A stretch of 64,000 nt of DNA from Haliotis asinina (lineage: Eukaryota; Mollusca; Gastropoda; Lepetellida; Haliotidae): positions 27,595,118 to 27,659,117 of the forward strand of contig NC_090280.1 of NCBI RefSeq assembly GCF_037392515.1. Reading direction: 5' to 3'. The notes below the pieces were generated by a model that was not told the origin of the DNA, did not search any database, and saw nothing but the letters and a program-made list of their open reading frames with translations. Position 1 is the stretch's first letter, and each line of letters begins with the position of its first letter. Shown here one piece after another: positions 14,494 to 50,780 of the stretch. The translations under genes were made by a program, and so were the position numbers.

Positions 14494-14589
14494 ATACCAC
14501 AATGTCATTCCACGAGATTTAAGGGATTTGGGAACAACACGCAATGATTGTATCGTTCCAAAAATTAAACGGCTTTAGAAACGCATAGC

Positions 14590-22100: not shown

Positions 22101-25100
22101 CATCTCAACAAAAGACAGTGAAGTTATGTCTTCGACTACTAGGTCAGCGCTGAAACTACACCCTACATCTTCTACGTCGTCCTTCAGCAATGAAATTGTC
22201 CCCGACGAATGTCACATCTACAACAAACATCCACCAGTACTTCCTGAGGTACAGATAATCAGCACTCCTGATCAACATTCAGCATCCGCTAGACCTTCAA
22301 CTACGTCAACAACAGCACTGCAGACATCAGAGAGTCTACTTTCTATGCAGCCATTTACATCATCTACACTTAGCACCTCAGATGCTTCTGCTGCTGCATA
22401 CACTGCAGTCACTGGACACCGGCCTCTTCATGCATCGCAGTCAATGGACACCGGCCTCTTCATGCACCACAGTCACTGGACACCGGCCTCTTCATGCACC
22501 GCAGTCACTGGACACCGGCCTCTTCATGCATCGCAGTCACTGGACACCGGCCTCTTCATGTACTGCAGTCACTGGACACCGGCCTCTTCATGCACCGCAG
22601 TCACTGGACACCGGCCTCTTCATGCACCGCAGTCACTGGACACCGGCCTCTTCATGTACTGCAGTCACTGGACACCGGCCTCTTCATGCATCGCAGTCAC
22701 TGGACACCGGCCTTTTCATGCACAGCAGTCACTGGACACCGGCCTCTTCATGCATCGCAGTCACTGGACACCGGCCTCTTCATGTACTGCAGTCACTGGA
22801 CACCGGCCTCTTCATGCACCACAGTCACTGGACACCGGCCTCTTCATGCACCGCCGTCACTGGACACCGGCCTCTTCATGCACCGTCGTCACTGAACACC
22901 GGCCTCTTCATGCACCGCCGTCACTGGACACCGGCCTCTTCATGCACAGCAGTCACTGGACACCGGCCTCTTCATGCACCAAAGTCACTGGACACCGGCC
23001 TCTTCATGCACCAAAGTCACTGGACACCAGCCCCTTTATGCAACAGTTCACCACCCATATCATAAAGCTGATGGATCACTGTTCAGAAGAGGAATGGAGA
23101 CGCCAGTCACCAGCTACAACTACAGTCACCCTAGATGACCGTTCATCAGCTGCATTAGGTCCGTCAGATGAAGAGGAGGCATCGCATGCATCAAATCATC
23201 ACCGTCGGCTGTACCATTGCATTGCAATATGGATGAACCTCCTTCCATTGACTCCTCGAATGCTCGCACTAGCGGGTTTAGAGAGGCTGCCGAGGACTGA
23301 GTGTATTGTACATCTCAGTGGTGTGGAATTACTATGTCCGACTCGTCCGACTCGGGAAAAAATTGACACTGACAAGTCAGTTTTTACAAGTTAGTCGTCC
23401 GCGGACAAGTAAATACCGAATCTCATTCATTCGTTCCATTAAAATACAGTGTGCCAAAAATTAATGTCCTAGATCAAATTCATTCATCAGTCCCCTCCCG
23501 CACTCGTTCTGACGGTCACGAATATTAGTGTTGTAATAAATTGTGAATGTCAACTCTTCTCTGGTTGGCTGGATTTCATAACTTCCTGGGAATTCCTTGG
23601 TAGAGAACCAGTCAAATCAATTGTTACTATAAGGCACAGTCGCGTTGACAAAATCGTGGAAGTGATCCCTCGGCTATTTCTGAGAATTCGATACGATGCA
23701 GCATTACGATTGGCTGAAAGTTATATCCCTGATTAATATTCATGAGCTCATTCGCGAACATTTGTCAAACTTCCGCTGTCAGGGAAGCGAATGTTGTATG
23801 AAAAATGGACAAGTTTGTAATACGATCAACACCTGGTCACAGAGAACAAACCCTGAGTCGATCAAGTGAGGAAGCTGGCTCTAGTAAAAGAAAATCTAAA
23901 TCTAAATGATCTTCTTCAGTTAGAAGAGAACTTCAAGGGATTTCAAGTGTTCCACTGTCTTTGCATAGAGTGAGGAGGTAAGCATAATAGGCAGGCGTCA
24001 GGATAAGTATGAGAGATCAATTTTATTCAGAAAATTACATTTATCTGTTATCAAGAATTGGCTACATGTACAAAAAAATACCTGTGCGTATGCAAGACTT
24101 GTACAGTAGGACTTACAATATTATGAGTACAGGTGTCTGTTGTCAATATTACTTTCAGCTCTCACAGAGAAATGTACCGCAGATATCTCAATGCTGGCAA
24201 GGGAGGCGATAAAACTGGTAGTGAAGGTTGCAGACCACTAGAAAATCTGTTTGGCACATTGAGAAACCTGTTGAATGGCAAGGTAATGTTTTTGTTTCAC
24301 CTGCTGTGAATAATACTCCAGCATGACAGACCATCATAATCATACATAATACCAATCCCAATTTATCATGTATTAGTGTTTTAATTTCTGCTAAAGTGTG
24401 TCTATGAAATATATTAAAATGTTGCTGCCCTTCATGTACGATGTTTTGATCATATTATGTCTTTCAGGTTAATTTAACCTATTCTGTGGCATGCAAGATA
24501 CCTGAAAAATTACAAAACTGCTTTTGCTTTTAACCTTCAGCCAGCATATTTTTTGTAGAATACAAAACAGAACTTACATTTGAAGATCATTTCAGACTGG
24601 AGACAAGCTGGTGAAGGTGTCCTGTGACTGGACAGCGGTGGTGTTCAGCTTCCTGCCGAGGTTCCTGGGAGCCTTCCTTAATGTGTGAGTAGTCCGGTAC
24701 TTGGCAGAAAGGGGTCAGTCATGTCCCTGCACAGGGTGGAGGGAGGGAATCAGTCAGGTCCCTGAACCTTTGGTAACTTCAGGTTGTCTTACCCTGATAA
24801 TGATGGACACTTATTCAAGTGATTTGACAGAGGGGGGTCATGTCCCACGTCCTAGGGGAAATTGGATCACTCAGGTCTCTAGACCCATGGGAAGGGGGAA
24901 TCAGTCAGGTCTCTAGACCCGGGGAAGGGAGATCAGTCTGGTCTGGACCCAGTTGAAGGGGAGTTCAGTCTGGTCTGGACCCAGGGGAAGGCAGGGATCA
25001 TTCAGGTCTCTGGACCCAGAGGAAGGGAGATCAGTCTGGTCTCTGACTTAAAGCTGACTAGCCCACGTGATGATAGACTGTTTCTCCTGACTCACACATG

Positions 25101-28100
25101 GAGCAGAGACTAACTGATCTAATCTGATGGGACACATGTGAAGGTCTGTGTTAGAGGTAGTTTTCAGGAACTCGTGCTTGTCGTAGAACCGACTGAGGAG
25201 ATTGGGTTTTCAGGTTCGCTGACTTGATTAGTGCATAAGGTATTCATCATATCTTAAATGGTATCAGATATCATGTCCCCAGCAAGCAGTATTGGTCAGT
25301 GACAGGGTGACAGTGGATCTTGGTGACTTGCTTGTGTCATCATACCACTGCTGCTCTAAGAATTGTCCAAACGGGATTATTTAGAAACCTTTTGAGTTTA
25401 ACATTCTTGCTCTTGCATGACCCAGTCTATAAACCGGTGTCCTCATGCAGCTGTTTCTCACTCAGTCTTTATTTCAATACTGACAGACCTTAGACCTCTT
25501 TCTCACTGAAGTAGTAAATCCAGCAACTTGTTGAAAGAGTAAGTTTCAATGTTTCTTTTGATTTTATACCTGACCCCAAATTTCCAAAATGTTGAGTCAA
25601 ATTGTCTTGAATGTAGTTATTAATAGAAGTGATTCTTCATAGTTGCGAAAAGCATTTGAGCAATTGTATGAGTCAGAATAAATATATAAATGTTATTTTT
25701 TTCCCAAAATACTATTCTTTTTCCCAAAGGTTATGGTGATTCTTAGTGTGACAACCCTACAATAGTTTGATCAAAATGAAATTCAGCAACTCAAAACCTG
25801 AACCTATAGTGATGTAGTTGTCGTTATCTTCCAGCCATGACAAGACCCTGTGTCAGAAGATGCTGCAGCATCTCTGCAATCTTATTGGTTTAGATGGAGA
25901 TGGTGCTGCCCCCTCTAGGACGCTGGAGACACTGCAGGTGATGAGGACTGTCTCTGCCATGTTGAAGCAAGTGAAGGATGCTGATGTCTACAACGTTGCC
26001 AAGGACAACGAGACAGGGGGAAGTCAGCTGAAGTTCTACAGGAAGCTGGCCGAGATCCTCCTTGCCATTCCAGTGTAAGTGGGGACAGTTCACACTACCC
26101 GGGATGGTGGTGTAGTGGAGGGGTCTTCTCATCTGGCTGAAGATCAGGGTTCAATTCATAGCTGTGTAATGAATGTGCAGTGAAAGTCTGGTTTGAGAAT
26201 GTCTTCAGCAACTCATTCGATTCGTAAAAGGCAACACATCATTCGTTTCCCAGTTGCGTATATTAAGGCTCATTCTGTTGATCACTGGATTGTCTGTTCC
26301 AGATTAGCTTGTTTACATAGTGCTGCCATATAGCTGTAATATTGCTGAATTCAGTGTAAATCAACAATTGGTGACTCAGGTTGGAAAAGCTGATCTAAAT
26401 GAGCATCTGGTATCCTAATTCCTCATGCCTTTTATAACTTCCCAGTGTTGTATTGAGCTTAAACACTTTTGGTAATCTCTGCGTTCATTAATGTGACAAT
26501 ATGCCTTCTAGGGAGGATGCCTGGTATGAGACGGCCTTGACCTTGCTGCAGATGAATCATGGGATACTTGAGCCAAAGATGTCTCATCTGCTCACACATG
26601 GTTGGCTGACAGTTACACAGGTAGGTGACCAGCATGTGGGGGAGGCGATGGGGGTGGAGGGAGACTCTTAAAGCTGGCTATCCCACATGATGATAGAGAC
26701 TTACTCCTGACTCACACATGGAGCAGAGACTAACTGATCTAATCTGATGGGACACAGTGGATGATGGAATATTTGAAACATGACAAATTGGTAGACACCA
26801 TGTCACCATGTGAAAGTGAATTAGTCTTCAGCAATCCATGCTTGTCATTAAACTGACTGCCACCCTTCAGCAATTCATGCTTGTCTTTAAACTGAGCGTC
26901 ACCCTTCAGCAATCCATGCTTGTCATTAAACTGAGTGCCACCCTTCAGCAATCCATGCTTGTCACAAAACTGAGTGTCACCCTTCAGCAATCCATGCTTG
27001 TCATAAAACTGAGTGTCACTCTTCAGCAATCCATGCTTGTCATAAAACAAGTAAGAGTATGGGACCTGCTGGTCAAATGTGAAGCTTGAATCTTTGTTTA
27101 TCCTCCTTGACAGACGTCTAGCAGCTCCCAGTTGGGCAACTTCCTGTCTGAGCTGTTCAGCACCTACTTCAAACTGAGGCAGATGCCCAAGCTTGTCACA
27201 TACATAACATCTGCCATATTTGACAGCAGCCACAAGCTCAGCAGCCTCCCCTGTCCAAGAGTCTTCATAGATAGGCAAGTATGGCATTGTACAGCAGAAA
27301 ATGGGTACCCGGTGGGATATGTCATATAACTGTTAACCTAACTTCCAGCGCCCCCAGGCACCTGTGGTTATCAGGGGTTACAATGTGTTAACGCCTTGAG
27401 TACGAGTGTGGACATTATAAATAAGTAGAGTCATTGTTAAGTATGACATAGCCGCAGTATATAGCTTTAAGAAGCTCTGCAACATTTCCGTTATACCTCA
27501 ATGAAGTCAGTAGAGTCATTGTTAAGTATGACATAGCTGCAGGATATAGCTTTAAGAAGCTCTGCAACACTTCCGTTATACCTCAGTGAGGTCAGAATCA
27601 ATTTTTAGGCAATATTATTCCTCAGCTCAGTTTTACAAAGTAATCTAAGATTTTTGTTCAAAGTATTGGAATATTAACGTAAATGTCAGATTGATAAAAT
27701 ACAGTCTTTAAATTGAAACTGCTACTCATCGCTCATTCCTGAAAGGTAATGAAGCAAGTAGAGAATAGGATTGACAATACAAATGTAATTTAATGCTGGA
27801 ACATTGCCTATAGCAGCACAAGGAGACTCTCTTATGTCCTGCATGTTAACAAACACTTGTAGAGCTGTGCTTCCGAGTGTCAGTCTGCGACACTGTTTCA
27901 AAAATGTTCAAAACATGCCCAGAATATGCAATTATATGATTTAGCCCCTGAAAATCAACTAGTTTCCTTTCACAACCTCAATTCTGAAATAATCAGGTGT
28001 GATCTTCCCAGGTGATGATAGACATTTCTCCTGACTGACACATGGAGCAGAGACTAACTGATCTAATCTGATGGGATTTCTACCTGAAGAAACTTTCTGT

Positions 28101-31100
28101 TTATAGACATCATATATAGACAGGACAAACGAAGGCCACCACTGAAAAACAAGTGCAGTGATTTCAAATCTAATGCTTCAACACTCCTCAAAATCATAGT
28201 CAGTTGTGCTAACAATAATGTAAAGCACAGCTCCAAACCTTCAAATACTTCATGATTTTATTGGCGTATTAGTGCCTTTTTAAGGTAATGTGAGAGTTAG
28301 TACAAACAGAAATGTGGCAAGTTGCATTTATGCTGCTGAACAGGGGGTTGTAATTGTAAAGCAGTGCTAAGTATTGACTGTTTCTGGATAAAACCCACTG
28401 TAGAGATCATTTTAGTGAAGAACTTGAGGTTCTTAAAATTAGGTTGTTTTTAAGAAACATTTCAGAATTGTTTTTTATTCAACAGCAGGTGTCCCAAAGT
28501 AATTACACAACTAGCCAAACTGGTTTCTTATTGGACCAGATTGCATAAGAGATTCATAGTCTTTGTACATGTGATAATGCCCGTAATACCATGTGTAATA
28601 ACACTACAGTGTGTGTTGAAGGTTCCAGGACCTGGTTCAGGGGCTGCCACAGACCACAGTGGTTGCCATCTGGGGGAAGCTGGTCGAGGAAATGAAGACC
28701 CGATACATCGAACCCCTCGTGGATAAGTCAGAAGGTGAAGTTGGCTTGATACGATACTCTTAATGAAATGCTGGAATCATTGTCATTGATGCTAACTGTG
28801 CTGTCATAAATACCTGGATTCATTTGCTTGTTTAGAGGGTGATGGCATCGTGTGTACGTCTGTTGTTGACAACTTCGCTCAGTAATTTTGTCAGTGTGGA
28901 ATGAACAGATGTATTCATATTTTAAAACTCATTTTTGATCAGTGTAAAAATCTTTTCAATCTCTCCCAAAATGCACATCAAAGAAAAGAGTTAGTAATCA
29001 ATGATAACCTTCAATGGGTCTTCACAAAGCCCAAAACTACCTGTCTCCCAGGTGATGTGAACTCAGTTTCCTGACTCACCAGTGGAGGATCTGATCTAAT
29101 GAGGCTGATGGGGACAGGGACATGCATGGCAGAGTTGGTGCTGACTGTATTGACCACTAATGGCAAACAAGGATAAGTTGAGCACAGACCTTACAATTGA
29201 CCCGTATTAGCATGTTTGAGTGCCGCTCACTGGGACTTGCCGTTGTGAGCAAAGCGGCCTCATGTTGTCTGGGACCATATGAGAATATTAGGAGCAAGGC
29301 GTGTGCAGCAACATGTAGAGTCAATTTCATCGTCATGCACTGCACGTGCAGTAGCCTACATCTGGACCTTTCACAAACCAAATGGGTTTGCTCATTACTG
29401 TGCACTGCCAACTTCTCATATTTTCTGCACCAGACCAACTTATTTTTGTTTGCCAGTAGTTTGTCTGGTGCTGGTTGAATGTCAAGACATCCTTGTTGTA
29501 TACTAAATTCTGTTCATTAAAGTATTTTGTTATTTGCTAGAGAAATATTGTCTGTCTCTTGAAATGGTTTGTGTAAATGGTGTGTTGTTCAAATCAGATG
29601 TGGGATTGCCCAGCAAGTTGCGGTGTGTGGCAACAGTACTCCGGCTGTACCTTGGAGGTGTCAAGATGGCTGACTACACCATCACTGAGGTGACTGCCCG
29701 TACAGCCCACCAACTGATGTCCCAGACAGAGAGTGAAATCCTCCAGCCTCTCTATGACCTGGTCAGTGTACAAGTATGCCTCTCACTAGTCAGTTAGGCT
29801 GTAATGATGCATCGAATCGTCAATTGATTGCAATTGTTGGGTGTCCGATAGTATTTAATCGATGGTAGAAACAAAAAATTGTTGAGGCATAGATAGTATG
29901 TGTGACTATGGGATCGTATAGGAATTGACCTGTGTTGATAAGTGCACGGCACAAAATACAAGAAATATCAGATTTTTTCACTTTTATTTAGAGTTATCTG
30001 TCGCTGTTACCTTCAGACATTCATGGTGGCAAACAATGCATGCAACCAAGAGTTTGAAATTGTGAATAACAAGAAGTTTAACTTCAAACTGTTTATATGA
30101 TCTGGGTTTCAAGTTTCTTGGGAGTTACTAAAAGAGACTAAATCTACTGGAACTATTTGGGAAATGACTTGAAATGAGGCCATTCAAAGGAATTGCAATA
30201 GTTGGTTGCAATAAACCATTGCTATTGCAATGGTTGATTCCCCGGCAATAGTCACCCATACTATCAGTGTCCTTGTTATGAAGAGCAACTGAACTGATGG
30301 GCTGATCAAATTCACTGTCTCATTTGAATTCATATAGTGACACCTATTTTGTATGTATCTATGCTCATGATGTTGGTCACTGGATTGTCTGGGATCATTT
30401 CCAGAAATTCATTTGAGTGAAATCCTCAGCCTCTATATAACTTGGTCAGTCAACAGTTATGCCTCGCCGCTTGTGGAACTCTAGAGAACATCTGATAGAA
30501 TACTTGTCCATAAGAATCTGTATGCTTGTCTTGAAGGGTGACATTTATGGAGAAATCACTTGCGGACTTAGCTGATTTTGTATCATTGTAGGCTGATCGT
30601 TTAGCCTTGTGGTTAAAGCGTTCACCTTCTGGTGTCCCCTGCAGGGATTTTGCTGGAATTGGTTCAAGCCCATAAAACCATACTAACCCCGCTGCATGTA
30701 TCAGTACTCATGATGTCAGACATTGGATTGTCTGGTCCGGACATGATTATTTTCAGAAATGCATTTGCGTAAAAACTGCTGGGCATTTAGTCAAGGCCCA
30801 GTGTTGGAGGAAATGGGATATGTAGGAGAAATGCTTCTTCATGAACCTAACTGAAGAAAGCCACCGTGCCCCATTGTTTGTTGACATCATTGTGTACCAG
30901 TTTTATTCCTATTTAAAAAATGATCTTGTTTTTTGGAGAAAAAAATCTTTGAAAATACCACATCTCACTTATTGCCATGTTTTCCTATTTCAGGGAGAAC
31001 AGCTCTTAGATTCAGCTCTCTTCTTGAGTTACACATGGGGGGAGCTGAAGCTGTTGCTAGCTTTGTATGACAAGAAATACAGAGCTAGCCTCACACTCAG

Positions 31101-34100
31101 AACAGACGCAGTTTCCCATCAGCATGACTTTGAACTGGTTCATCCCTACTTTGCTGCAGAGAGGTGGCAGAAGATACATAAGAAAGTGAAGAAGTCACAG
31201 AATAAAGGCCTGCAGTACTTGCTGGTAAGTTGTTTCATGTACATTAATTCTATCACACAGACCGTCATTTGTTTCAAGGCAAATTGCAGACAGTGTCATC
31301 ACTCGTACACTGTTACATCAATTTGATTAATGACATTTTGGACACAGGTTGCCCATCTGTCTAAAGATGGTTTGGTGTGCCGAGTTGTCTGAAAGAAAGT
31401 AATAATTGCCGAGTTGTCTGAAAGAAAGTAATAATAATGGATTTGAATCTTGACTCCCAGGTTTGTCATCACCAAATTGGTTTCACAAAAGTGAGCATCT
31501 TAGATGGTCTGAACCAGTGATATGACTGTCTGTTGAAGGTGGCTTTAAACCCAACTCTCTCCGTTTCACTCACTCGCTGACCCTTCCTCTCACTCTGTCA
31601 CTCACTTTCCCCTCACTCACTGACCCCCTCACTCACCCATCCATCCACGCAGGGTGTATGTCTGCCTCCCAGATGATGTGCTATACCTGATCATGACATC
31701 ACCATGGATATTTTGATCTAATGAGTCTGATGGTTGGCAATCATAGCCTAAGCAAGCTGTGGACTTACCTTGAATAAAGTGTGTTTGTGAGAAAACATAC
31801 TTGCAGCAGTCCACATGGTAGTGAAAACTCTCTAACATCAGTTACTTGTGATGCAGGTGAAACGCTGAATACTTTCTCACATTCAAATGTTTTTTTCTAG
31901 GACTTGCTGAACATCCAGAAGCTGAAGGCTCTCCTGCTGTTTTCTCCAGAACAAAACAAGACAGACGAAAATGTACAGATGGCCATCAACAGGATCATCA
32001 ACCTTCCAGCAGATGTCACTGATTATCATCGAAGTGCATCGTGGGACGGGCAGGTGGGTACATATTTGGTTGAGTCGTGAAGAATAAATGGTGGACTGAT
32101 GATCCCGTGTGATGTTCATTTCCTTCATGACTTCACACATGGATGTCTTATCTAATATGTCTGATGGGTTTATCATCTGCAATGTTGGTTCTGTGTCTGC
32201 TATGTTGGTCGGTCAGTCAGTCTAAACTAAGCTCAGTATTATTTGTGATACTGCTAAACAGAATCTAACAAACTCTAGTAGAAAGTCACGTCAACTTTAT
32301 AACAATGATACATCCATCTATGTTAAAACATACATAGTGTTACTGTCGGCATCACTGAAGCAAAGGATATATTTCTATAGCAATATTTATTAGCAAAGGT
32401 GTATCACATTGAGCACAATTATGAAATATGTGTTCACAGACATGAAATATCAGTAATAATGGGATTTTTATTTTCTCAGCCATGTAGTATAAACGGAGAC
32501 AACTGTGTGGTGTCCAACTGGCAGATGCTGGTGTCCAACCTTCCAGTGTTCGCCACGGGCCTGTCAACTCAACATTGTGAGAAGATAGCCCAGTTTATAG
32601 TGGCCACAGCTGGAGACCCAAACAAGACAAGGTAATCAGTTCATACTTAAGAGTTATGTCCCTTTTGTTTTGAAGTAGTACTTTTCTGTTTAGAATTGTC
32701 CAATGTGTGGAGATATTTTTGGAAAAGTACTTTAGGGTTAAAAAGCTGTAAAATGAGAGATTGAAAAATGAATGGAAAATGTGGCATACACAATCTATTT
32801 ACTTATATTTCTTGCCAATGAGCTTACTGTTCTTGCTGGTGAGAGTAATGTCCCTTGCTGGCTGGATTAGTGTCCTTTCCAATGAGAGTAGTGTCCCTCG
32901 CTGGCTGGGTTAGTATCCCTTGCCAATGAGAGTAGTGTCCCTTTGCGAGCTGGGTTAGTATCCCTTGCCAATGAGAGTAGTGTCCCTTGCTGGCTGGGTT
33001 AGTATCCCTTGCCAATGAGAGTAGTGTCCCTTGCTGGCTGGGGTAGTGTCTGTTGCTGGCTGGGTTAGTGTCCCTTGCCAGTGAGAGTAGTGTCCCTTGC
33101 TGGCTGGGGAAGTGTGCCTTGCCACCGAGAGTAGTGTCCCTTGCTGGCTGGGGTAGTGTCTGTTGCCAGTGAGAGTAGTGTTCCTTTCTGAAAGGGGAAG
33201 CATCCCTTGTCAGTGAGAGTAGTATCCCTTGCTGGCTGGGTTAGTATCCCTTGCCAATGAGAGTAGTGTCCCTTGCTGGCTGGGTTAGTATCCCTTGCTG
33301 GCTGGGGTAGTGTCCCTTGCTGGCTGGGTTAGTGTCCCTTGCTGGCTGGGGTAGTGTGCCTTGCCACAGAGAGTAGTGTCCCTTGCTGGCTGGGGTAGTG
33401 TCTGTTGCCAGTGAGATAGTGTTCCTTTCTGAAAGGGGAAGCATCCCTTGTCAGTGAGAGTAGTATCCCTTGCTGGCTGGGTTAGTATCCCTTGCCAATG
33501 AGAGTAGTGTCCCTTGCTGGCTGGGGTAGTGTCCGTTGCTGGCTGGGTTAGTGTCCCTTGCCAGTGAGAGTAGTGTCCCTTGCTGGCTGGGGTATTGTGC
33601 CTTGCCACCGAGAGTAGTGTCCCTTGCTGGCTGGGTTAGTATCCCTTGCCAATGAGAGTAGTGTCCCTTGCTGGCTGGGTTAGTATCCCTTGCCAATGAG
33701 AGTAGTGTCCCTTTGCTGGCTGGGTTAGTATCCCTTGCCAATGAGAGTAGTGTCCCTTTGCGAGCTGGGTTAGTATCCCTTGCCAATGAGAGTAGTGTCC
33801 CTTGCTGGCTGGGTTAGTATCCCTTGCCAATGAGAGTAGTGTCCCTTTGCTGGCCGGGGTATTGTCCCATGATGATGAGAGTAGTCACCTTTGCTGGCTG
33901 TAGTTAAGTATGAATGTTTTTTATTGATGACCCAGTAGATTCTGTAAATGGCAGGGCATTTTGCATAGGTCAGCTTATGGACCATACATCCTGAATGGCT
34001 GACCTGCTTGCAAGGCCTGCTTGTTTGTGTTCATCTACATTTCAAACCACTGTAATTAATCACTAATTGATGTTTCTGTTTCAGCTGCCTAAATTTAACT

Positions 34101-37100
34101 TCTCTTACCAATAGTCTTCTTGTGGCCCCAGTTACCATGGAAACAAGGAACTTGCAATCTTGTATCATAGCAGCATTATGGCCACAACTTACACCAAGTC
34201 CAGGCCCTGGGAAGAGGTATGTAAACAAGCAGTCCTTCGTAGAGTCAGGTGGATTGTAGCATGTCACGGTGTGTCACCTTCATATATAATGGAACTTTCA
34301 GTTATCAGTTACATTGGTAGCTGACAGTTTACCAATGTAATCTAACACCTTACTGCACTCTTTCGTCAAACACCTTACCGACCACTTCAGTCAACCACTT
34401 CTGTTGAACACCTTACTTAAGTCAAACACTTTTATGAACCTCTTCAGTTAAACCAACCTCTTTAGTCGAACACTTCACTAGTTTAGTGGATCACCTTACC
34501 CACCTCTTCAGGAAAATACTTTGCCACTTTTGTCAAACACATAACTCTAATCGTTCACTGGCATGACAAGTTTATGCAGTTTATAATTTGAATATGTGAT
34601 GCACTCAGATTTTGTGTTCCAGTCCAAAGAAGAAGAGAAAATTGTCCCCTGGAGTAACCATGGTGATAGAGGGCCTCTCAGAGCTTGCTACCATGAATCT
34701 TGACAGACCCGAGAAAGTTGACACGTACGTTTTGTTCTGACTCATCAATCTCCCTCATGATGTTAGACACTGTCTCTTGACTCGCACATTGAGCACAAAG
34801 TAACTGATCTAATCTGATGGAACATAAACTGTTTCTTTTGTCTGTTTGATGCCAATGTTTTTTACCACAGTGGATTACTGTCCCCCGCCACAATGCGGAA
34901 TCGGAGACTATGTATTCAGCAGCATCTATGTGTACGTACATCCCGGTCCTTGTTCTCGTGACATCTCATGAACTCTTGTACCCAATGTCTTCAAATTTTG
35001 TGACAGCCTAAATTAGGGGACTAGCAGACACCAATCAGTTTGGGTGACTTTGGTCTTATCTTTAAGGTCACCACATCATTTTGACCACTTTTCAAACTTA
35101 TGTAAATGTGATATCTCATTAAACTTTGCACCCAATGTCTTCAGTATTTTGACAGACACCAGTCATTTCAGGTATCTTGTATGTGACCCAAAAATAAAAT
35201 AATAGTAAAAGCCGTAAAATCAGTCGGCGTGTTGAATATTTTGCTTAACTCGAAGTACCTGTTGGTCCCAGCCACTTTTTCTATCATCATAGACATATCA
35301 GTCTCGAATGCATTGATTAGTCAAATTTATTATAAGCTTTTTGACTGATCGGGATTGACGTGTATGTTATAAATATTTTGGTCTTCTTTAATGGCAGGTG
35401 ACATAGCCTTATTAAAGGCAAACACTTGCTCTCCAGCGGAATCCAGAGCCAGAAAAGGTCCCTTGTAACTCACACAAGAGTTGACTCAGGCTCAGTGACG
35501 TCATAAATTACCCACATGGGTTAAAAGTCTGAAGCCCATTTTGGGTTTGGGTTCAAACATTTCACACTGAGCGCCCAGGTTTGATTCCCCACATAGGTGA
35601 AGACTATTTCTGGAGTCCTTCGCTTGATATTGATTTGATATTGCTGACATATTGCTAAATCAGCATAAAACCGTACTCACTCGCTCGCTTTATTTGTTCA
35701 GTGAATTCCTAGGTGAGTTAAAAGGAGTTGCCGCCCTTGTTACAAAGACCTTGTCCACCACGGAGGAGCCTCTTGATCTCCAACCTGGACAGCTACAGCT
35801 CCTGAAGGTGAGAAAAACCATGTTGATTTTCCCATACATCCATAATGTTGATCATGTTTTAAATTTGAATACACAATGCCATTTTGTAAGTGGTTATATA
35901 TAACACGTTATAACATGACTTTCAGATTCTAGTACTTTTGCTGGGTTGAGCCCCTACTCTCTGAATCAGGTGCCTATTTTGCAGCACACGTCAGCTGTCT
36001 AACCCACTCAGCCACAGTGGATCCGCGAAAACTGAAGTTGGACAACATGTAGTCTAGATCATGAACTTTGTGTACCCCTCTGACAAGTACAAATTGGCCT
36101 GGCTCCCATGGCAGAAAGCTATGTATACTCAGTGCCATTTGGAAAATGCTCAGATGTTGGGATTACATGCTTGGGACTCAACCCAACAAAAGTTCTAGAA
36201 TCTGTACTTTACTGAAAAAGTGTAATCCCAAATTTATGTGAAATGTTGTAACAAACAATGTCCCACATGATGATAGACACTTCTCCTGACTCACACATGG
36301 AGCAGAGACTAACTGATCTAATCTGATGGGAGATTAAATACATGTTAACATGACTCAGTTTGTCAAAAGGCATGTGTGCTGATTCCAGTTAGAATACGGG
36401 TGGTGAGGTAACCTAGTGGGTAAAGCATTCGATCTTCCCGCCAAAGACGGGGGCATCCTTTCACAATGCACTAAGGTAAGTTATTAACTTAACCTTAGTG
36501 CAATGTTAAAGAATGGCAGTTACGGTTAGCCTTAGTTAAGGTTGCTTCATGAAAGGAGTCCCTGGGATTTATTCCTCATATAGGTACAATGTGTAAAGTC
36601 CATTTGAGAGCCCCCACCATGATATTGCTTAAACACTCGCTGACACAGTCACTGCAGTCATGGATGTCCGTGACCTCCTTTCACAAAGCACTGAGGTGAT
36701 CGTAAGTCATTAAGTTAACCTTAGCACAGTGTTAAAGAATGGGAGTCAAGGTTAACCTTACTAAGGTTGCTTTGTGAAAGTCCCAGTCTACCATTGTCTA
36801 AAGTGATCTTAGCCCGAAGGAGACTGTAACTCACATACCTTAACATGGCCTTTGATAGGCAGTCTTAGCGCTAAGGTTGTTTTGCACAAGTGCACCCTGA
36901 ACATCAGTGGAGTGCACTTCACCTAGTCCTCACAGTGGCAGTGTATCACTGGAGTTTGGTTTCAGCTCCTGGAGAAGCTGCCTCTTGAGTTCCTGTCTCC
37001 GTCAGAGAGAGTCCGCTGTTTCTGTGGTTTGACGCTGCTTGCATCCTGCACTGCAGACAACTCTACCATCATCCCCCTGCTCACCACCCTCCTTGATGGA

Positions 37101-40100
37101 GTTGGTCCCATGGCAGTGTTCCAGATAGTCAGTGCCGATGTCTTCCTGACATGGCTCACTACTCTATGTTGTGACACCCAAGTGAGTCAGCCTTTTTATC
37201 TGTGCGCCCGAGAGATTTTGATGGAATCCTGTGTTTAACATAGCATAGACAGTTCTCTGTGTTTCAAATGGGTTCTTTTGGATTGTGAGGTGCATACATC
37301 AACCTGTCAGTGTGTAAACTTGGGACATGTTCACTGTGTCATTGAGTAGTTGTTCCAGGGGTTCGATCTGGCTTGAAAAACCTGTAAATTTGAACATCTT
37401 ACCCTTGTGAGGCCTTAAGTAAATTTGTTTTGCCTTGGAAAGTCCATAATTACAAGGGATTTGCTTTAAAAAGGTATTATTATTAGCTGTACTTGTCAAA
37501 TTATGATTTTACAAGAAACTTGTACATGACAAAAATACAGTGAAATGATAGTGAATGTTAATTAATCTCCATCACAAAGCGAAACTTTCCAACTGAAGTG
37601 ATATAGCTCAGGTTATTACCCTTTTATGGTCAATGCCACGTTTGACCATGTGTATTTAATGACTTCTGTGTTATATGTGTTTCTATAGTTCCTAACAATT
37701 GTTGATAAGCCCCTAGAAAGACCTTAGTTCTATCTTTCATTTGTTGTCCATGGTGGGATATTTCTACTTGGTTATTGTTTTCAGTCCACAGATTCTCCAG
37801 TACAGATGTTGGTTGACAAGACTTGTCAGGTGATAGTCAGGGATTTCCTTGTTATCACCAAGATGGAGTCGTACATGACAAAGGTGAGGGATGGCCCAGG
37901 TAATGGGCAGAGTAGATGGTTCTCCTCCTTGTACTGGGATGCATCTTTTACACACCTCCCTAGGTTATTCTTTAAGATAACTCTCTCTTAATCTGCTACA
38001 TAATACCTGCGAAGATGCGGGTTAGAATCTTCACCAGCCCACCTGGTTGACATGTCATCAGTTCCCAGTTATGCTGATTGATGCTCATGGTGTTGATCAT
38101 TGGATTGTCTGGTCCAGACTAGATTATCTACAGACTGCCATCTTATAGCTGGAACATTGCTGAGTGTGGCATAAAACTAAACTCAGTCACTCACTTAGCA
38201 GCCCATGCTTGTTGACACATGTCATCGTATCCATGTACATGGATTGATGCTTATGCTGCTTCATCACTGGATTGTCTGATCCAGACTTGATCCTTTGCCA
38301 ACCGCTGTCATATGGTTACAGAGAGAAAGAAAAATGGTACATCAATCCCCATGTTAATCTGGAAGTGTTTCTGTGACAGCTGTGTGCTGACCTGGAGCTA
38401 TGCTGTGCCCACCTCCAACACAAGAAGATCCAGAAGGCCTCTGACCTCGAGAAGGCCAAGTTTACGTTTGCCTCAGCATTCCTCAAACATGTCACTATGG
38501 TAAGTAGTCACAACATCTTACGTCTGATACCACATCTTCTTTAATGTCGTTGGTTGAAAAACTATATAAAATGTTATTCGAAACGTGGAAATTTCAATGC
38601 TATTCGCTGCATATTGACTCGTATGTATTGTTGTGTCGTTTTGAGTTGGTGGTTATTTGTAGTGGTGCTGAAGGGTACATTAGGGTTGAGGCTGAAAATA
38701 TTTGGATGTAATTCCTTAGAATGGCCCTTAAAGTATTTGGTGCAAGAGCATGAGAATATCTCAGGATGAGGTGGTTTTGGATTGGGGATAGATTTGTAGT
38801 TTAGTCTCTTTCACAGAATACCACAGACTGGCCTTAATGATTCTGCCTGTTCTAACAACATTTGTCTCTCTGGTCTTCAGCAATTACAGAAGCAAGCCCT
38901 GCCATCAGCAATTCGGGACTGCTACAGAGGAATCTTCGTAAAATTGTCTTCTGCCATCAACACCATTATCAGCACCCTCAGGGCAGTGCCAAGCAAGAAG
39001 ACAGTTGTCTCCCCTTCCTCCTATTTGATCAGCTGCTTCAGATTTGTTGTCAACCAATCATGTGTAGACTTTGGAAAGGAAATGAAAAGGAAAGAGAAAG
39101 AAGCAGTTTCTATGGAGATTGATGAAGATGCAAAGCCAGATGTTGAAACAGGGAGTCTGGATGACAATCTCACTCAAAACATTGAGTTCGTCATAGAAAG
39201 ATTGACAGAAGACATTGGGCAAGAGAATGTAAGTTGTCAGCTTGAGTATATTACATCTTAGGTGAATACAGAGGCGGTGGAGTAGCCGGGTTCAATTCCC
39301 AAAGTGGGTACAATGTGTTAAGCTCATTCTTAGTGTCCCCTAATGTGATATTGCTGGAATATTGTGGTTGATCAGCTGGTTGGGTGCAGGAAAAAGATTT
39401 GAGTACCATATATCTGTTTATAATTGTAAACCAATTGTGAGTGCTTTCCGCAAACTGATTGGTCAAATACCCTTGTCGAATTGTGTTCATCAAAATGATG
39501 GCATAATGACGCTGACACTGATGGTTTTAAACTAAATTTGTCTTTGTTGAATTCCAGTGAATCCCGGAAATTGAACAAACCTAACTGTTTATCTGTTAAC
39601 TGTTTATTTATGTTTCAGGGATGTGACATTTCTTTGCTTGAGTTCATCCAGACAGCATGCAACCATCACAAATTCCTCAAGTCAGTTTTGACGTCTGTTA
39701 TTGTTCATAAACTGTATGAAGTGCTTATGTCTGCTGTCACCAGGTCACATGACCAACATAAACTGATGATGTCGTCACTACATGTGAAAAGTGTCACAGA
39801 CAAACCAGGGCCTGGTGACAATGACCAGAGAGCTGACTTACTGTATAAAAGTGTTAGGGATCTTCTTGATGGGCATGTACCAAAACAGAACACGTCATCA
39901 CATCACAGTCCTGTACTGGAACAGCCAGATGGCTCTGGTCAGCTACACAGTTTAATGTCAGCACTCCAAGATACTCTGGCTGCTGTTATTACTTCCTGTG
40001 ACCTTGACCTCTTCAAGACCATTTTGGCCAACCTTGTGGACACAACAGTAAGTGGAATAATGTCCGATGTTTTGCAAGAGTTTTGGCACCCTATGGGAAT

Positions 40101-43100
40101 TCAGAGAAAAAAATACTTAAGCTGCTTATAACAGATGAGGTTGCTACAGTGTTTATACACTTGTTGGGTGGTGGAAATATTCACTTTTCATGCTTAAGAC
40201 CCAGGTTCAATACCCATATGAATACAGTGTGTGAGGCCCCATTCTGGTATCCCTCGCTGTGATAATTTGTGGAGTATTGCTGAAAGTGATGTAAAACTAA
40301 ACTCACCACTGACCACTCTCCACATGATGATAGACACTTTCTCCTGACTCACACATGGAGCGGAGACTAACTGATCTAATCTGATAGGAGGGAAGATATG
40401 TTTCTATAATAACTTAGCTTGTGAGACGGCACAAAGCACCCATGAAGATTCCAGGTCCATGCTTATAGTAAAAATGATGATCTGGAATGTTGCTGAAAGT
40501 GGCATAAAACAACTCACTCTCTCTCTCTCTCTCACTCACTCACACTCTCACTCACTCACTCACTCACTCACTCTAGCAGATGAAGAAATGGTTTAAGCTT
40601 CAAGTCTTGATCATCTTGAATCAATATCCAACGCTGGATTCAGATGCAGTTATTTACTGGCAGGAATATTTCAGAGTACCAGATAGAAATTATTCCATTA
40701 ATAATGATGTGAATGTCGGTTTGCAGATCAGGACTAATCTGTGTGAGTGTTTAACTTGAAGTAACTATGCTTTTAAGCAGGAAAACGTCAGCTGATTGAA
40801 ACTGTGTCTGTAAGCGTCATTTACAGAATAAAACACAAACACAAACATGGCTTTTCGTGTCTGTTGGCAGTTGAGTCACAATGGATCTGGACAAATTACA
40901 TGAAAAAAGCTCAAACATGGTCAGCTTGATGAGAGTTTTTAACTTTATTGTCTTTAGGTACAAATGAGAAACTACTAATTTGTTATGTAATATATAAATG
41001 CACTTATTCTATGAAAAACTATGGATATATGCTCTTTGTTGAGAGATGAAATATACTTCAAGTGATAGAATTTAAGAATGACAATGTATGCTGACCATTG
41101 GCAAGGTTCGTTGAACACTATTTATTTCTAATAAAGTATATTTGCCGTCCTAACACAGGCAAACATTATTCGTTTTGCTGAGATGTAGTTAATACAATTA
41201 TTTCAGTGTCCAGCCCTGTTGTGGACACAGAAAGACAAAATGCTGGCAGCCATGACAGTTTGGGAGAAGCTTCTTGCAGGGGTCTTAACTGAAGAGCAGA
41301 GTGTGGAGGTTACAGTGGCTGCTCAACATGTGAGACTTTCTTTGATACAAACACATAGATTAGTGGTGGTCCCAATTAACTGAAATACTTAAAAATTGAT
41401 TGCAGTGACCAAATGACCAAGCAGTTGATCACATTTTCTCATAATCGAACACAAACAATTTTTGCAACCACTGTTTTTGGTGTCTGAAACACTTGAAGGG
41501 CCAGAAAAGTTGTTTAAGTCTTAGAAAACACACTTCACTTATTGAAAAGTCATGACTGAATATTTCTTGAAGACTTCAGGAAGTTTACATTCTTGATATA
41601 TTAGTCATCACTTTAAAGTAGGAAGTTGCATCATTTTACATTGGATATAACATTAGCAAAGACAAAAAAAGGCAAACAAAAACCAAAACAGTGGAAACAG
41701 AGAACCACTTTATACCTATCTGCAATATCAACCTGAATAGGAAAATCTGAAACTAATACCAACAAGTTCTTTTTGATGATTTCTCATTGGTAATGAACCA
41801 ATGGTCTTTTGTGAGATTTCAACCAATTCCCAACATTCGACCAACCCCTCAACTACTTACAGGATTTGACTACTCAGGGGATATACACATATCTCTGTAG
41901 TTCATTAAAATTGTTTATTCGACCTTGAAAAGCCCATAAAAAGGCCTTTCATGGCTGATAGTCTGCATGAGTGTTCATGTTGTAGATATTGATGAACTAC
42001 CAGAGCTGCCTGGAACAGCTCCACTGTCTGCCTGCCGATGATGCCATTCACCAGGCTCTGCCGATACTCCGCTCACAGACAGCCATGTTGAACTATGGAT
42101 ATGTGAGTACACAGAAACCCTGCTAATCCGGGCATCCTCACTCTGAATGGAAGTGCCCAGTGTAACAAGTTCCTGGATAGATAAATAATGATGCTTTGTA
42201 ATGTTTAAGATAAATGTACACATCATTTGAAGTTTAACAATGTTGGCGACAGAGAGTTCTTGGATTACGTAAACGTGTATGGCAGCTTGACCCCTGCGAG
42301 TTGTAGGACTTCTGTTCTACCCCACAATGAATGACATTGATCAGAGCAGGGAGCCTATATACAGGGGGACAAGAAACTCCTCGAAAAGCCGCTGAATGTA
42401 TGTCTCGGGTCGTTATGTAACCAGTGTAGCCAATATGGTGGCATCGTAGTGAGCACGGTTTATTTTCAACAGCTGATTCAGGTTGCTGATTGTTGTAACA
42501 ACTGAAATCCTACATGTAGAAGATAAGTTAACTATTTTGTCACTTCAGTTTAAGTCAAATAATTGGTATTAGTGTCCGTATTAGGACAGTAGATTTGTAG
42601 TAAAGTTTCAAGTCTGTATGTTATAGCTCACTGGCTTCTATTCTCGATTCATCGCGAAGATAGACTAAATTGTGCCGATTAAAACTTCTGTCACACATTC
42701 GTTTAATTTTTAGAAGGGAAACATACCTTTAGTTGAAAGGTATTTGCAAGTTATAGTGACAGTTTTATGAAGCAAACAAAAAATTGTTAGGGTGTAATTG
42801 AGGTGTGTGAAAAATATGATAAATCGCCGATCTGATCTGATTCGCCATTGATGCTTGTGATGCTTGAGGGTTTTAGTTCCATAACTGTTTTCTTTCTTGT
42901 TGATCTTATTATTTGACAAAACTGGAAAGGTGTTTTAGAATGCTTTGTGACAGTTATACACTTTATTTTTGAGGGCAGTGTGACAGTGACAGTTAACATT
43001 TTGTTAATGTCCATTCCATTCACCGCATGCAATAAGATATCTGGATTAAATATTAATGTAAACAAAATGTCTCAGAGTAGATTTTTTAAAAGGACAGCTG

Positions 43101-46100
43101 ATGTTAGCACATGTTGTCGCAATACTTTTGCATTCTTTAACATGATTTGGGAGGGAAAGCCGCGGTGTATCATTCATTCTTTCATTCATTCACATAAGTA
43201 CTTCTTTCTTTATTCTTTTTCTTTATTTCTTTCATTTATTCACATAATTCTTGGTCTTAATTTCTTACTATAATTCATTCATTCATTCATTCTAAAATTC
43301 CGACTGATACAATAAACTGGCTGAAGTTCTGTTAAACACAACTGAAGTTGCGCTGGGAACGAGCTAAGTCACCGTGTGCTTTGGAGCATGACGAGGCACA
43401 CGTTAATAATTAGTACAAATGATAAAGAAAGCAAGTGAGTGACCTATCCCTGTTGTAGAGTATCCCTGATCAGAGTTATAATGTTAGTTTTTTTGTCATA
43501 CACTTTGTTATTTTGAGATACATTCAGAATATGTCAGTGCACTGACTTTGTGAAGAAACTTTCTTAAGACTATGAGGCTACCTACAGGATCAGGTGCTCA
43601 GACTCACTCTTTTGTTTCAAATTGAGGGTTGTTTTATCAAATATTGGTGATTGTATTTAGTGAGTGAGTAAGTTAAGTTTTACGCTGCACTCAGCAATCA
43701 TCCAACAACATGGCGTCTGGACCAGACAATCCAGTAATCAACAGCATGAGCATCAATCTGCGCAATTGGGAACCGATGACATGTGTCAACCAAGTCAGCG
43801 AGCCTGACCACCTGATCCCGTTAGTTTCCACTTACGACAAGCATAGTCATCTTTCATTGCCAGCATGGGTTGCTGAAGACCTATTCTACGCTGGACCTTC
43901 ATGAGTCAATTGTATTTAGTAGTGGGTTATGTCTTAATACACAGTTGTGTTGATGAAAATATCTGTACCCTGACTGTCTCCCAGGTGATGTGAGCTTACT
44001 TACCTGACTCCACAATGGAGGATCTGATCTAATGAGGCTGATGGGAGATTGCTATAGAACTTCTAAACGTATTTAAGCCATCGTTTTAGACCCCAGATAT
44101 TGATTAACACAAACTGATAATGTCATGAAACCCTTGAACAAAAAAAGTTGGTTTGGTGTGAAGGCATCAGAGCTTTCAGTGACTTATGTCAAATGTCAAA
44201 ATATTAATTATTCTCCCCAACCCCACAAGTTGGATGACAAGTGACTTAAAAACAGTAGGTGCAGCTATATATACTCAGAGGAAAATTAATGGCTAACTTT
44301 GCCGAGAGTGAGTGACTTTGCAATTTCTAGCAATATCAAGGCATGAGCATGTTTAGAATTAATTTTAGAGTGCTTTTCCTTATTTTCAGTGGCAAGTATC
44401 ATTAAATTCTAGCAAGTATATTCACACCTTCAGTAAATGAGTAACGGAAGATATTCCATTCGATTGAAAAGGAGAATTTTCCATCATAGAGAACCTACCT
44501 GTCTCCCAGGTGATGTGAACTTATTTACCTGACTCCACAATGGAGGATCTGATCTAATGAGGCTGATGGGCGACATGGACAAGAAACTCTGGACATATTT
44601 ATAGCTTTTGTATTGTACACTAGATGACCCTTGAAGATCCAGTTTAGAATTGATCTTCATTAACCCAAGCTTGTCATAAGAGGTATGCTCCTGTTGTTGA
44701 TCACTGGACTGTCTGGTCCAGACTCAACTGTTTACTGACCGCCACCATATAGGTGGAATATTGCTGAGTGAGGTAAAACAAAACTCAGTCACTTATGCAC
44801 CAGATTTAGACTTATAATGTTATTAAGAGTTTGAACAAATATATATTGCCTATGTTAAAAGACACCAGTAACTGATTTCTAAAAACAAACTTAAATCTGA
44901 GTTTTACTTAAGTTCAAGTTTTTGCTCAAATTTGAGAAAACACAGGAACATGCATTTTCCAGAATGGATGGAAATTGGTATCAAACTCAAACTTAGTAGA
45001 CAATCTGAGTTTTGTGGACAGATTTCTTTAGTGGTTTGAATGTTTTTATATTTCAAAACTACAGTTGAGTAAAAAAAATTCAGCTGTTGTGAAACTCAGT
45101 TTGAGATTTGAGTAAAAACTTAAGTTTGTTTCAAGAAATCGGGGCCAGATCTTAAAGTGATGCATGCAAGCAAATAACAAGATATGAATTATAACACCCA
45201 CAGGAAGTGTAATTCCAACAGGGATCAGCTACATGTATATCCCGAGGAAAATTAATGACTTATATTGTTGGTTTTAAAGGGGATTCATATATTTGGTATA
45301 TATTTTACTTGCTTCTCCAAATTTCAGTTGCAAGTTTGAATAAAATTCTGATTGGTATATGCAAAAAAAATTTCCTTCCAAGAGAACAAACTTGTCTCCC
45401 AGATGATGTGACGTTATTCCCCTGACTCAGCAGTGGAGGATCTGATCTAATGAGGCTGATGGGAGACTGAATACTCGTGTTTCGTTTGTTATTTCATTAT
45501 TTTTTTTTTTTTGAAAAATGAATTTCTGTCTTTACCTAAAGTTTACTGATGTGAAACTGGCCCTAACACAATAATGGAAGTCATACGGGTCTCTGCAAGT
45601 ATGTTGAATATGTTGTTAGGTGTTTCTGTGCGGTGGTGGAATGGCCTGGTGGTTAAAGTGTTCACTCATCACACCAGATATCCGAGTTCAATTCCCCTCA
45701 AGGTTACAATGTGTGAAGCCCATTTCTGGTGTCCCCTGCTTTGATATATTTGAAATATTGCTAAAACTAGCGTAAAAGCAAACCCACCCACTCACTCACT
45801 CAATCACTCGCACATACAGCTGTGATATTTTTATCTCTAGCAACTCATGTTGTGGATACTAAAATGGACCCAATCCATCCATCCGTACATCTGTGCACAT
45901 TAGTCTTTTCAGGTGCACAATTTTAAAACCGTTAAATGTTTCTTCACCAAACTTGGCACATAGATAGATTTCGTGATGTACTGGTGCCTTTATGGAATTC
46001 TGAATAAATAGACCCAAACTTGTGGCGTAAAACTAAACTCACTCACTCACTCATTCTGAATAAATATTTTGTTTAAGTGTTAACAAGATTATCTTTGAAG

Positions 46101-49100
46101 TTTAGAGTTGTGCACCTTTCTGGGCAGAATTTGGAAACCTTTCAGTACTCTCCTTCTTCTTTGCTATATAATTGCCAAAACTTTTGACATAAATCATAGC
46201 TAGTAAACTCCTTCATGAAGAGTATTTTGCCATTGAGGAGGATACTGATTACTCTGTCTTCTTGTTTTTGTTCTTGTTCATTTTGGTTTCTTCACTCACT
46301 CCTTATGTTTATTTAACTGTGATTGGTTTATGTTTCTTTACCAACAGACATTGATACCTCGACAGACCTCCGTTCTCTGCCTTCATGGTTGTCAAGTCGT
46401 ACCACTAGAGGGCAGCACCTACAGCTCCTTTATCCCAGCATGCACTGCTGTACAGGAAGTGTTAAGTGCTCTCATAATACACCACCCTAATGCTGTCCTG
46501 TCTGTCATTCCCAGCTACGTTGCCAACATCAGACATATCCTTCGCAACATTGTTCACTTTACTTTACCTGGTAGCAGTGAAGTTCTTGTAACATGATACA
46601 CTTCCCAGTAAACCATCACTCAGATGTCAGCTCACAAAGTCAGAGGTGTCAGAATGGGTTAAATCACAATCCTAGACTCAAAGCAAAAAATGTACTTGAA
46701 TCTGTACGTAACAAAACATATGTGTCGTTGTGGTGGTGGTTTAAACATTTGCTTGTCACACTGAAGACTGATGTTTCACTCCCTCACTTAATCTAAATGT
46801 CATTTTGTATCCATAGTCAAGACTGAAAAGGTAGCTTTTTAGGTCCTGTAACCTGTGTATTTTACCCTCTGAAGACATCGATTTGGGATGGCTGTTGGTG
46901 AGTAATAAATCATCTCAATGGACCAATCAATGAACATGGTTGTCAACTCCCAGGTGATTAAGACTTCATCCGGATGTCCATGACGGCACTGATCTAATGA
47001 GTCTGATGGGAGACTGCATGAATGTGAACTGTCAAATAAATGCTGCAAATTGATAAAAAGCAACAAACTGGTTTAAGTTTTATGACTGTCTCATGAATGA
47101 TATGCAGTGTAAGAATGCTTATCTATCATGATCATATTTGTCTTTTATTTATCAATGTTTACATCTGTGTCCCTTGAATGATCTGATGAACCAGGTTCTA
47201 TTCCCAGCATGGGTGCAATGTGTGAAGCGCATTTCTGGCGTCCCCCTACTGTGATACTACTGGAATATGGCTAACCATACTCACATATCCATTCACTTGA
47301 ATGATCTGCAATATGACATCCTGTTTATCTGTTAAGACACAATGAAAGTGATGTCTTTTATCAAAGCATGCCTGAACTGATCTTACTTTATCAAGACATG
47401 GCTGATATGTTCTTCTATTTATGTCTTTCATCAACTTATCTTTTTCATGTGTGTCTGTCTGCCTACCTATGTTTTCATGTGTCTGTATCACTCTGATTTG
47501 TATATGTGTCTCTCTCTGCCTGTTTGTGTTCTTTGTGGTTCATGTTGATCACTGGATTGTCAGATCCAGACTCGATTATATGCAAACAGCCAGTATGTAA
47601 CTGGAAAATTTCTGAATGTGGCGTAACACAGAACTCAGTCATCCACTCACTTTGTGGTTCATATTAGTATTCAGCAGTTTGGATAAGTATCAAGTATTAC
47701 CTTAACCAGTCCACATCTCCTGGTGTCTGTCATCCAACATGGCTGCCAGGACAAGCTGGCTTCAGATCCACAGTACGTGGACGGCATGGTCCACTGTGCT
47801 AACCAACTTACCAGGTAAAGTGTTTGTGTTAGTCTTATAGGTGTGTCATGATGTCAGGGTTATACTGTAACTATGTATTATCCAACAATGTTCTAAGTAT
47901 AGGAGAAAACACGCCTCCAAGGTTTTGGTAGACACTGTAACCCCGATGGTTTTACATACATGCTGTCAATGATGGGTAATTACAATGCAGATGATCATTT
48001 AATGAAGCTAACGATAACTGAAGTGCACGTAAAATCAATTTAATGGAAGTAACTATAAGTAGATAATTTAACCCCTCCACCTTCATCAGCCCGGTGGCCA
48101 TGCGGTAGAGCATCTACCTATGGAGGAGAAAATTGTGGTTCCAATCCCCCTTTGGAAAATCTTTCTGTCATGAGTTTAATCTTGAAAAATCTCAATTTTT
48201 CAATTGATTTCAAACACTATCAAGAATAAGGACTATGATATGTGGATATACAACTTCTTTAATTCAGTGAGTGCAACGTTTTGACATAGATACTAATGTC
48301 GCTGTCAAGCAAATGGTACAGGGTAATAAATTTGGAACTCACTGAATTAAAGAAGTTGTATATCCATAAATCATAGTCCTTATTCTTCATCTACTCAACT
48401 TCTAGAATGCATACCAAAGAACTTATGTATCATTTGAATGTTGAGGTTCATATGAAGTTAGGAAGAGTAAACCCTGGGAAGCGGTCTTTCTAACAAAAAG
48501 TAAAACCTGTCCCTCCAAAACAAAAGCCTCAAATGCGGTTTTTATGGGAAAACAAGAGATGGCCGAATATATAGTGAGAAGCACACTTAAGGTTTATATG
48601 TAATGTCTATTTATACAACTGGGTAGTGATAACTAAATAGGTTAGTGATATTAACTGTAATTATGCAACAATCCAGTAAGTGATATCTAATTGTATAACA
48701 AGATAGTATGTGATAACTGTAATTATACAACATTGTAGTGATAACTAGTTGTACAATAGTGTAGTAAGTAATAACTGTAATTATACATTGTATGATAACT
48801 AATGATACAACAGTGTAGTAACTAATTGTACAACTGTGTAGTAATTACACACCAGTATTGTAAGTGATAACTACTTATACAACAGTTAAGTGTTTTTGCA
48901 GTAACTGTACAGCCATGTTGCAGACTAGTAAGCCTGCTGCAGCCAGTCAAGGTGGAGTTCAGCAAGGTGGTCGTGTACCTGCTTGCAGACTATGCGTGTG
49001 AGGTTCAGAATGTCACTCTGCTCCCAGCTGTCAAAGTGAGTCTCATCAGGACTGATATCTGTAGATAGGTGCAGTAGGTGTTGCCTTTTGAGCTGGACTC

Positions 49101-50549: not shown

Positions 50550-50780
50550 TGCCCTGCCCCATGGGATGAAGGAAGTGTTTAAGTTAATGTACACTGAATA
50601 CACCAAGTACCACAAGTACACAGGGAGAGTATAGTGCCCTGCCCCATGGGACGAAGGAAGTGTTTAAGTTAATGTACACTGAATACACCAAGTACCACAA
50701 GTACACAGGGGAGTGTAGTGCCCTGCCCCATGGGACAAAGAGTGTATTAAAGCTTATGAACACCAGATACTGTAAGTTCA
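50468..50780 (+). repeat. 85-bp tandem repeat of the URB2 terminal coding sequence
   Basis: Unit one (50468-50552) is the true last 27 codons plus TAG. Units two (from 50553) and three (from 50638, one base deleted) repeat it with few changes, including the stop codon. Unit four is eroded after about 25 bp. The copies lie in the 3' UTR of URB2. Confidence 0.92.

Follow-up and report, generated by a model that had tools for sequence, protein, structure and literature searches.

In a 64,000-nt stretch of the Haliotis asinina genome (assembly GCF_037392515.1, contig NC_090280.1, positions 27,595,118 to 27,659,117; below, the window) we identified thirteen small units in introns of the ribosome-biogenesis gene URB2. 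They are probably C/D-box small nucleolar RNA (snoRNA) genes derived from SNORD57, amplified within URB2 and split into guides for nucleotide A99 of 18S ribosomal RNA (rRNA) and predicted guides for G103. The units form two subfamilies, seven of type B and six of type A, which were overlooked in an earlier reading made from the letters of the window without database searches (the sequence-only reading). With slightly less than even confidence, we see type A as a newly evolved guide for 2′-O-methylation of G103, which lost four bases beside the D box and extended its pairing at the far end.

The earlier census of thirteen C/D-box units of one family, all in the sense strand of URB2 introns, holds: all 13 lie on the forward strand between URB2 exons (Table 1; units are named by their first position). 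A model of primary sequence built from the seven type-B units recovered all six type-A units (E 8e-8 to 6e-5), and the next match in the window had an E of only 7.8, in agreement with the earlier statement that no unit was seen elsewhere in it. The reverse model, built from type A, recovered just two of the seven type-B units. With as many as six mismatches to the two guide/D-box words, a scan returned 13/13 units and four poor matches (type-B word: one extra on the forward strand and two on the reverse; type-A word: one on the reverse). The sequence-only reading had also called the family SNORD57-type and proposed a search with that model. In a low-threshold search of window positions 15000–55000 with the Rfam model (RF00274), SNORD57 was the best family for 11 of the 13 units (E 7.7e-6 to 0.83), none of them above the Rfam gathering cut-off; a default Rfam search therefore lists none of the eleven. 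Units 32104 and 34752 had no listed Rfam match in this search. The SNORD57 matches, together with the recovery of type A by the type-B model, support the SNORD57-type identity.

C and D boxes joined by a terminal stem, the mark of a C/D-box RNA, are present, and nine copies keep the C, D′ and D boxes alike. The boxes described earlier need some amendment. CTGA is found at the D box in 13/13 units, but at the aligned D′ place in nine, the exceptions being 34752 (TTGA), 31668 and 32104 (ATGA) and 46949 (CGGA); unit 31668 has another CTGA four bases upstream of the aligned D′. The C box RTGATGA/T is present in 12 units (46949 has GTGATTA), and the CCCA/TGGG terminal stem is exact in nine and not in the other four. 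Terminal stem energy was under the random-place mean in 12/13 units, with 34752 as the exception. Native terminal flanks paired better than swapped ones in the whole set (p 0.002 at 12 nt, 0.0037 at 10 nt); at 12 nt this was also seen within subfamilies (p 0.012) and for type B alone (p 0.004), so the native-stem signal is due to type B, with none from type A. A two-sided change was found in the outer stem, TGCC/GGCA in 31668 where 29047 and 44505 have TGTC/GACA.

The subfamilies differ in the sequence before the D box, which is CTGATCTAATGAGG in well-kept type-B units and CTAACTGATCTAAT in type A; the core is common to both and GAGG is absent in type A. According to the accessible part of PMC5389607, which also describes exceptions at six, methylation falls on the rRNA base that pairs with the guide five positions before the D box (D+5). 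By this rule the predicted targets are A99 for type B and position 103 for type A. Positions were counted from the 18S start in one ribosomal DNA locus of the animal, where site 99 is A and site 103 is G. All six type-A guides form 13/13 continuous Watson–Crick pairs from the base adjoining the D box (D+5 = G103), and all four well-kept type-B guides form 13 pairs starting at the second base (D+5 = A99). Among diverged type-B guides, 31668 pairs with the animal's own 18S over 12 bp and 46949 over 14 bp, while 32104 is broken. Thus 12 of the 13 guides pair over at least 12 bp at the D box, where at least 10 bp is taken to define an antisense guide, and 32104 fails to do so. The target A99, assigned earlier to the family as a whole, stands for type B (6/7) and for none of the six type-A units, whose register lies 4 nt downstream.

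When position 103 was left free, the 18S pattern matched 18 places, with G in 18/18; of eight matches inspected, four were altered or lacked the normal 18S surroundings. Copies of 18S that are partial or altered (L023, L025, L026 and L027) were observed on chromosome-sized contigs, one of them fused to a CACT-type repeat. All 13 guides have C opposite 103, a Watson–Crick pair with the animal's G, where the Rfam SNORD57 consensus has U; human 18S has A at this position. We know of no methylation of 18S 103 in yeast or man. Type A is probably the derived form, since the Rfam consensus shows the type-B register. On the D′ side, no convincing or conserved target was found in the part of 18S read.

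The subfamilies were aligned separately, and variable columns were counted in an alignment of 10 units, with the two guide registers gapped by hand and three diverged type-B units excluded. Differences from consensus are fewer in the guide and D box than outside, both in type A (0/102 cells versus 23/312) and in type B (7/126 versus 70/336). Random column sets were equally low in 172 of 100,000 cases for type A and 65 of 100,000 for type B. The diverged unit 34752 has no guide differences versus nine elsewhere. The spacer between C and D′ is the most variable part: 5 of 13 columns vary versus 1 of 25 in boxes and guide among the five well-kept type-A units, and 6 of 12 versus 1 of 29 among the four well-kept type-B units. 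The D′ side therefore seems not to be a guide.

Table 1. Positions in the window of the thirteen units and of the exon that identifies the host gene
Feature	Positions	Strand	Details
Type A	25062..25131	+	GTGATGA (C box) at 25067, end of D box at 25127; guide pairs 13 bp with 18S, D+5 = G103
Type A	26682..26751	+	intron 26621-27113
Type A	28007..28075	+	
Type B, SNORD57-like, guide to A99	29047..29112	+	SNORD57 E 2.3e-5
Type B, diverged	31668..31734	+	ATGA at aligned D′; guide pairs 12 bp, target A99; TGCC/GGCA as outer stem
Type B, most diverged	32104..32168	+	ATGA at D′; outer stem retained, but guide mismatched to 18S
Type A, diverged	34752..34821	+	D′ TTGA, weak stem; guide and D box unchanged
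Type A	36262..36330	+	
Type A	40319..40388	+	stem TCCA/TAGG
Type B, first of three in one intron	43980..44045	+	SNORD57 E 1.7e-5
Type B	44505..44570	+	SNORD57 E 7.7e-6; best in window and among candidates scored genome-wide
Type B	45398..45463	+	SNORD57 E 1e-5; upstream flank common with 44505
Type B, diverged	46949..47010	+	GTGATTA as C box, CGGA at D′; guide pairs 14 bp, target A99
Last URB2 exon	50394..50549	+	identifies host; PF10441 Urb2, E 7.8e-10, query 50334-50546

The host gene was identified by its last exon, which matches the Pfam Urb2/Npa2 domain with 39.5 bits against a cut-off of 27.1. A query built from two other URB2 exons matched the assembly at its two places in URB2 only. 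The 13 units are distributed over 11 introns, one of which has three units. A simple splice and codon model served to place the upstream exons, whose edges were then finished by eye, so several junctions are approximate. In unit 34752 the C box begins ∼32 nt past the 5′ splice site. The exon preceding unit 28007 seems to finish at a GC–AG splice donor (GCAAGT, window 27275).

Across the 1.14-Gb assembly, the exact type-A guide with its D box occurs at six places on the forward strand and none on the reverse; the type-B word gave the same counts, and all these places are in URB2 in sense orientation. These twelve exact matches are the units themselves, all but 32104, whose divergence prevents a match; reversed-pattern controls gave none. 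With one mismatch allowed, 18 extra places appeared versus nine for the reversed-word control; none of the 18 was convincing as a snoRNA on inspection, in which stems were not systematically compared. A C-box-like word lies within 75 nt upstream in three of them (L046, L052 and L054). The last has GTGATGG 44 nt upstream, at a plausible spacing, but was rejected for a TA repeat at the D′ place and a mismatch at 103.

Genome-wide, the SNORD57 model ranked the four well-kept type-B units first, followed by matches with E > 0.25. Of ten weak matches elsewhere, the eight inspected (E 0.25–1.6) all lack the guide and were rejected; the other two have E of 6.6 and 8.2. Of 281,049 first-look candidates, 61 were scored in this search, which missed known units (e.g. 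31668), so diverged relatives elsewhere could be missed. The exact guide was found in URB2 only and not in a NOP56 intron, the place of vertebrate SNORD57; a further SNORD57 outside URB2 was rejected on this ground and on inspection of the 18 one-mismatch places, the NOP56 gene itself not having been located. Five near-identical weak SNORD57-model matches on the window's contig (L016–L020, 47.73–47.85 Mb, E 0.4–0.7) have a C-box-like start and no 18S guide, and are probably a tandem repeat or a gene family.

How the array grew was addressed by a survey of unit flanks (156 comparisons, with a crude shuffle control). The upstream flanks of 44505 and 45398 can be aligned across several hundred bases (z 9.9); this pair is a local duplication. 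Two other flank pairs exceeded z 8, of which 45398/46949 reflects a dispersed repeat. Units 25062 and 26682 have ∼15 nt of flank in common. Past 20 nt, flank identity among ten units, compared ungapped, is 0.23–0.37, near chance. Our best guess is that the array grew by local duplication together with gene conversion of a snoRNA-sized tract. In the second of the two other pairs above z 8, the type-A units 26682 and 34752, the 400-nt upstream flanks align above shuffled sequences (z 8.1) across the preceding exons.

We propose that a SNORD57 descendant was copied within URB2 to give thirteen intron-encoded snoRNA genes. Type B (four units well kept, two diverged with a usable guide, one decayed) would guide fibrillarin to 2′-O-methylate 18S A99. 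Type A (five well kept, one diverged) would have lost the four guide bases adjoining the D box; its D box would then dock four bases farther along the rRNA, and G103 would be methylated instead. URB2 splicing would set the introns free, and the C and D boxes would be joined for trimming by the terminal stem, which has ∼6–10 bp in most type-B units and is shorter in type A. We infer expression, processing and methylation at both A99 and G103. Because both types would compete for one rRNA stretch, the ratio of type-A to type-B RNA could set which ribosomes are methylated at A99 or at G103, a suggestion as tentative as the retargeting itself. C/D guides gaining new target nucleotides are rarely caught in the act; in URB2 both registers stand side by side, and the animal's own rRNA fits both guides. 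A conserved guide looks to have moved out of the gene that hosts it in vertebrates and to have multiplied in a different gene for ribosome biogenesis, its dosage possibly being coupled to URB2 expression.

Several results weigh against thirteen SNORD57-derived genes with two targets. All 11 SNORD57 matches are under the gathering cut-off, the best score, in the window and among the genome candidates scored, being 42.4 versus 47 bits. The C opposite 103 counts as a single change common to all units and hence as only modest evidence; a U would still wobble with G. The native-stem test is not significant at 8 nt of flank (p 0.084), and in type A alone native stems were not better than swapped ones (p 0.44). 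Contiguous windows of equal length are as low in differences as the guide and D box in 2 of 53 cases for type A and 4 of 49 for type B, so that under this stricter control the conservation signal is weak; in well-kept units there is little variation in the middle segment between D′ and C′ as well (2 of 22 columns in type A, 3 of 16 in type B). By the approximate exon table, the D boxes lie 170–2307 nt from the 3′ splice site, none near ∼70 nt, and three units share a single intron (read as 42103–46348) versus the usual one per intron. Four units (31668, 32104, 46949 and 34752) show divergence at D′, in the C box or in the guide.

This divergence, the non-canonical intron position, the weak contiguous-window control and the one pair with a clearly duplicated flank would all fit an array in which many copies are snoRNA pseudogenes that local duplication or gene conversion left behind and one or two genes are active. 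We consider such an array unlikely, given that nine copies retain the C, D′ and D boxes, that guide and D box are unchanged even in 34752, and that the diverged units 31668 and 32104 retain their outer stems. The thirteen units might instead be dosage copies for one job, at A99 or in chaperoning this 18S segment, with type A binding the rRNA and not methylating G103. Coverage of one rRNA stretch by both types, the high copy number and the confinement of the exact guide to URB2 in the assembly agree with dosage, but in type A it is the base adjoining the D box, not D+5, that lies opposite A99; the A99 register pairs poorly, and the shifted register holds at least 13 pairs in 6/6 units. We find this account improbable as well. 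Near-chance flank identity would be expected also of a short interspersed nuclear element (SINE) or snoRNA retroposon family sitting in URB2 by chance; however, no copy was found elsewhere in the assembly or in antisense, the one-mismatch search included, and around the units we found neither target-site duplications above chance nor a poly(A) tail. We therefore give this explanation very little credence: the sequence-only reading had named identical copies in both orientations across the genome as the sign of a SINE, and as a dispersed repeat this rival is refuted, an intragenic retroposition step being possible. Unit 40319 begins right after a SINE-like repeat that recurs in the window (40204–40320; GTTCAATTCCC ... 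AAAACTAAACTCACTCACT).

Other repeats were seen in and around URB2. An 85-bp tandem array (window 50468–50740, 3.2 copies, 95%) starts within the terminal part of the last URB2 exon, which it repeats past the stop. Minisatellites lie in or near URB2 introns, with periods of 22/44 bp (32832–33900), 39 bp (26826–27048) and 32 bp (22397–23042); the 39-bp array is in the same intron as unit 26682. A Tc3-type transposase remnant (14569–15024, forward strand, PF01498) scored slightly below its cut-off, and a reverse-transcriptase RNase H domain (62616–63518, reverse strand, PF17917) above it.

The sequence-only reading held a large array inside a ribosome-biogenesis gene to be undescribed. Multi-paralogue intronic arrays are a kind already known, given the four DmSnR60 isoforms (a–d) in introns of the Drosophila pseudouridine synthase gene mfl (PMC1821038) and intragenic snoRNA duplication in chicken (PMC2653536), as far as the available text of both papers goes; the size of the array, its URB2 host and the retargeted subfamily may be new. 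Our literature search, which covered few subscription journals, found no snoRNAs in URB2 introns, no G103 guide and nothing on this animal's 18S stretch.

The units resemble SNORD57/U57 (RF00274; chicken GGgCD2) in boxes, size, D′–C′ segment and, in type B, the D-box guide to A99; the accessible part of PMC2653536 also gives chicken U57 a 13-nt antisense element at the D box. They differ in scoring under the Rfam cut-off, in having URB2 and not NOP56/NOL5A as host, in numbering 13 copies and in the shift of six of these to 103. DmSnR60 a–d are likewise isoforms of a single C/D snoRNA, housed in the introns of one gene for ribosome biogenesis. There are four of them, one per intron, at ∼70 nt from the 3′ splice site, a spacing described for vertebrates too in what was available of PMC1821038, whereas the URB2 array has 13 copies, three in one intron, none at ∼70 nt, and two guide registers, and is thus not of the DmSnR60 type. 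The duplicated snoRNAs of chicken are also paralogues in the introns of one host, with guides kept and the remainder drifting, and the authors state that substitutions and indels can create new guiding functions; the examples of novel function named in the text at hand, GGgACA30 and GGgACA14, are H/ACA RNAs (PMC2653536), while in URB2 a C/D guide has moved by 4 nt through base loss. Finally, the two-site small nucleolar ribonucleoproteins of U18, U24, snR13 and snR48 similarly address neighbouring rRNA nucleotides with one guide family; according to the portion of PMC5389607 available, each uses one RNA with unusual C′/D′ motifs, whereas URB2 has separate paralogues with ordinary D boxes.

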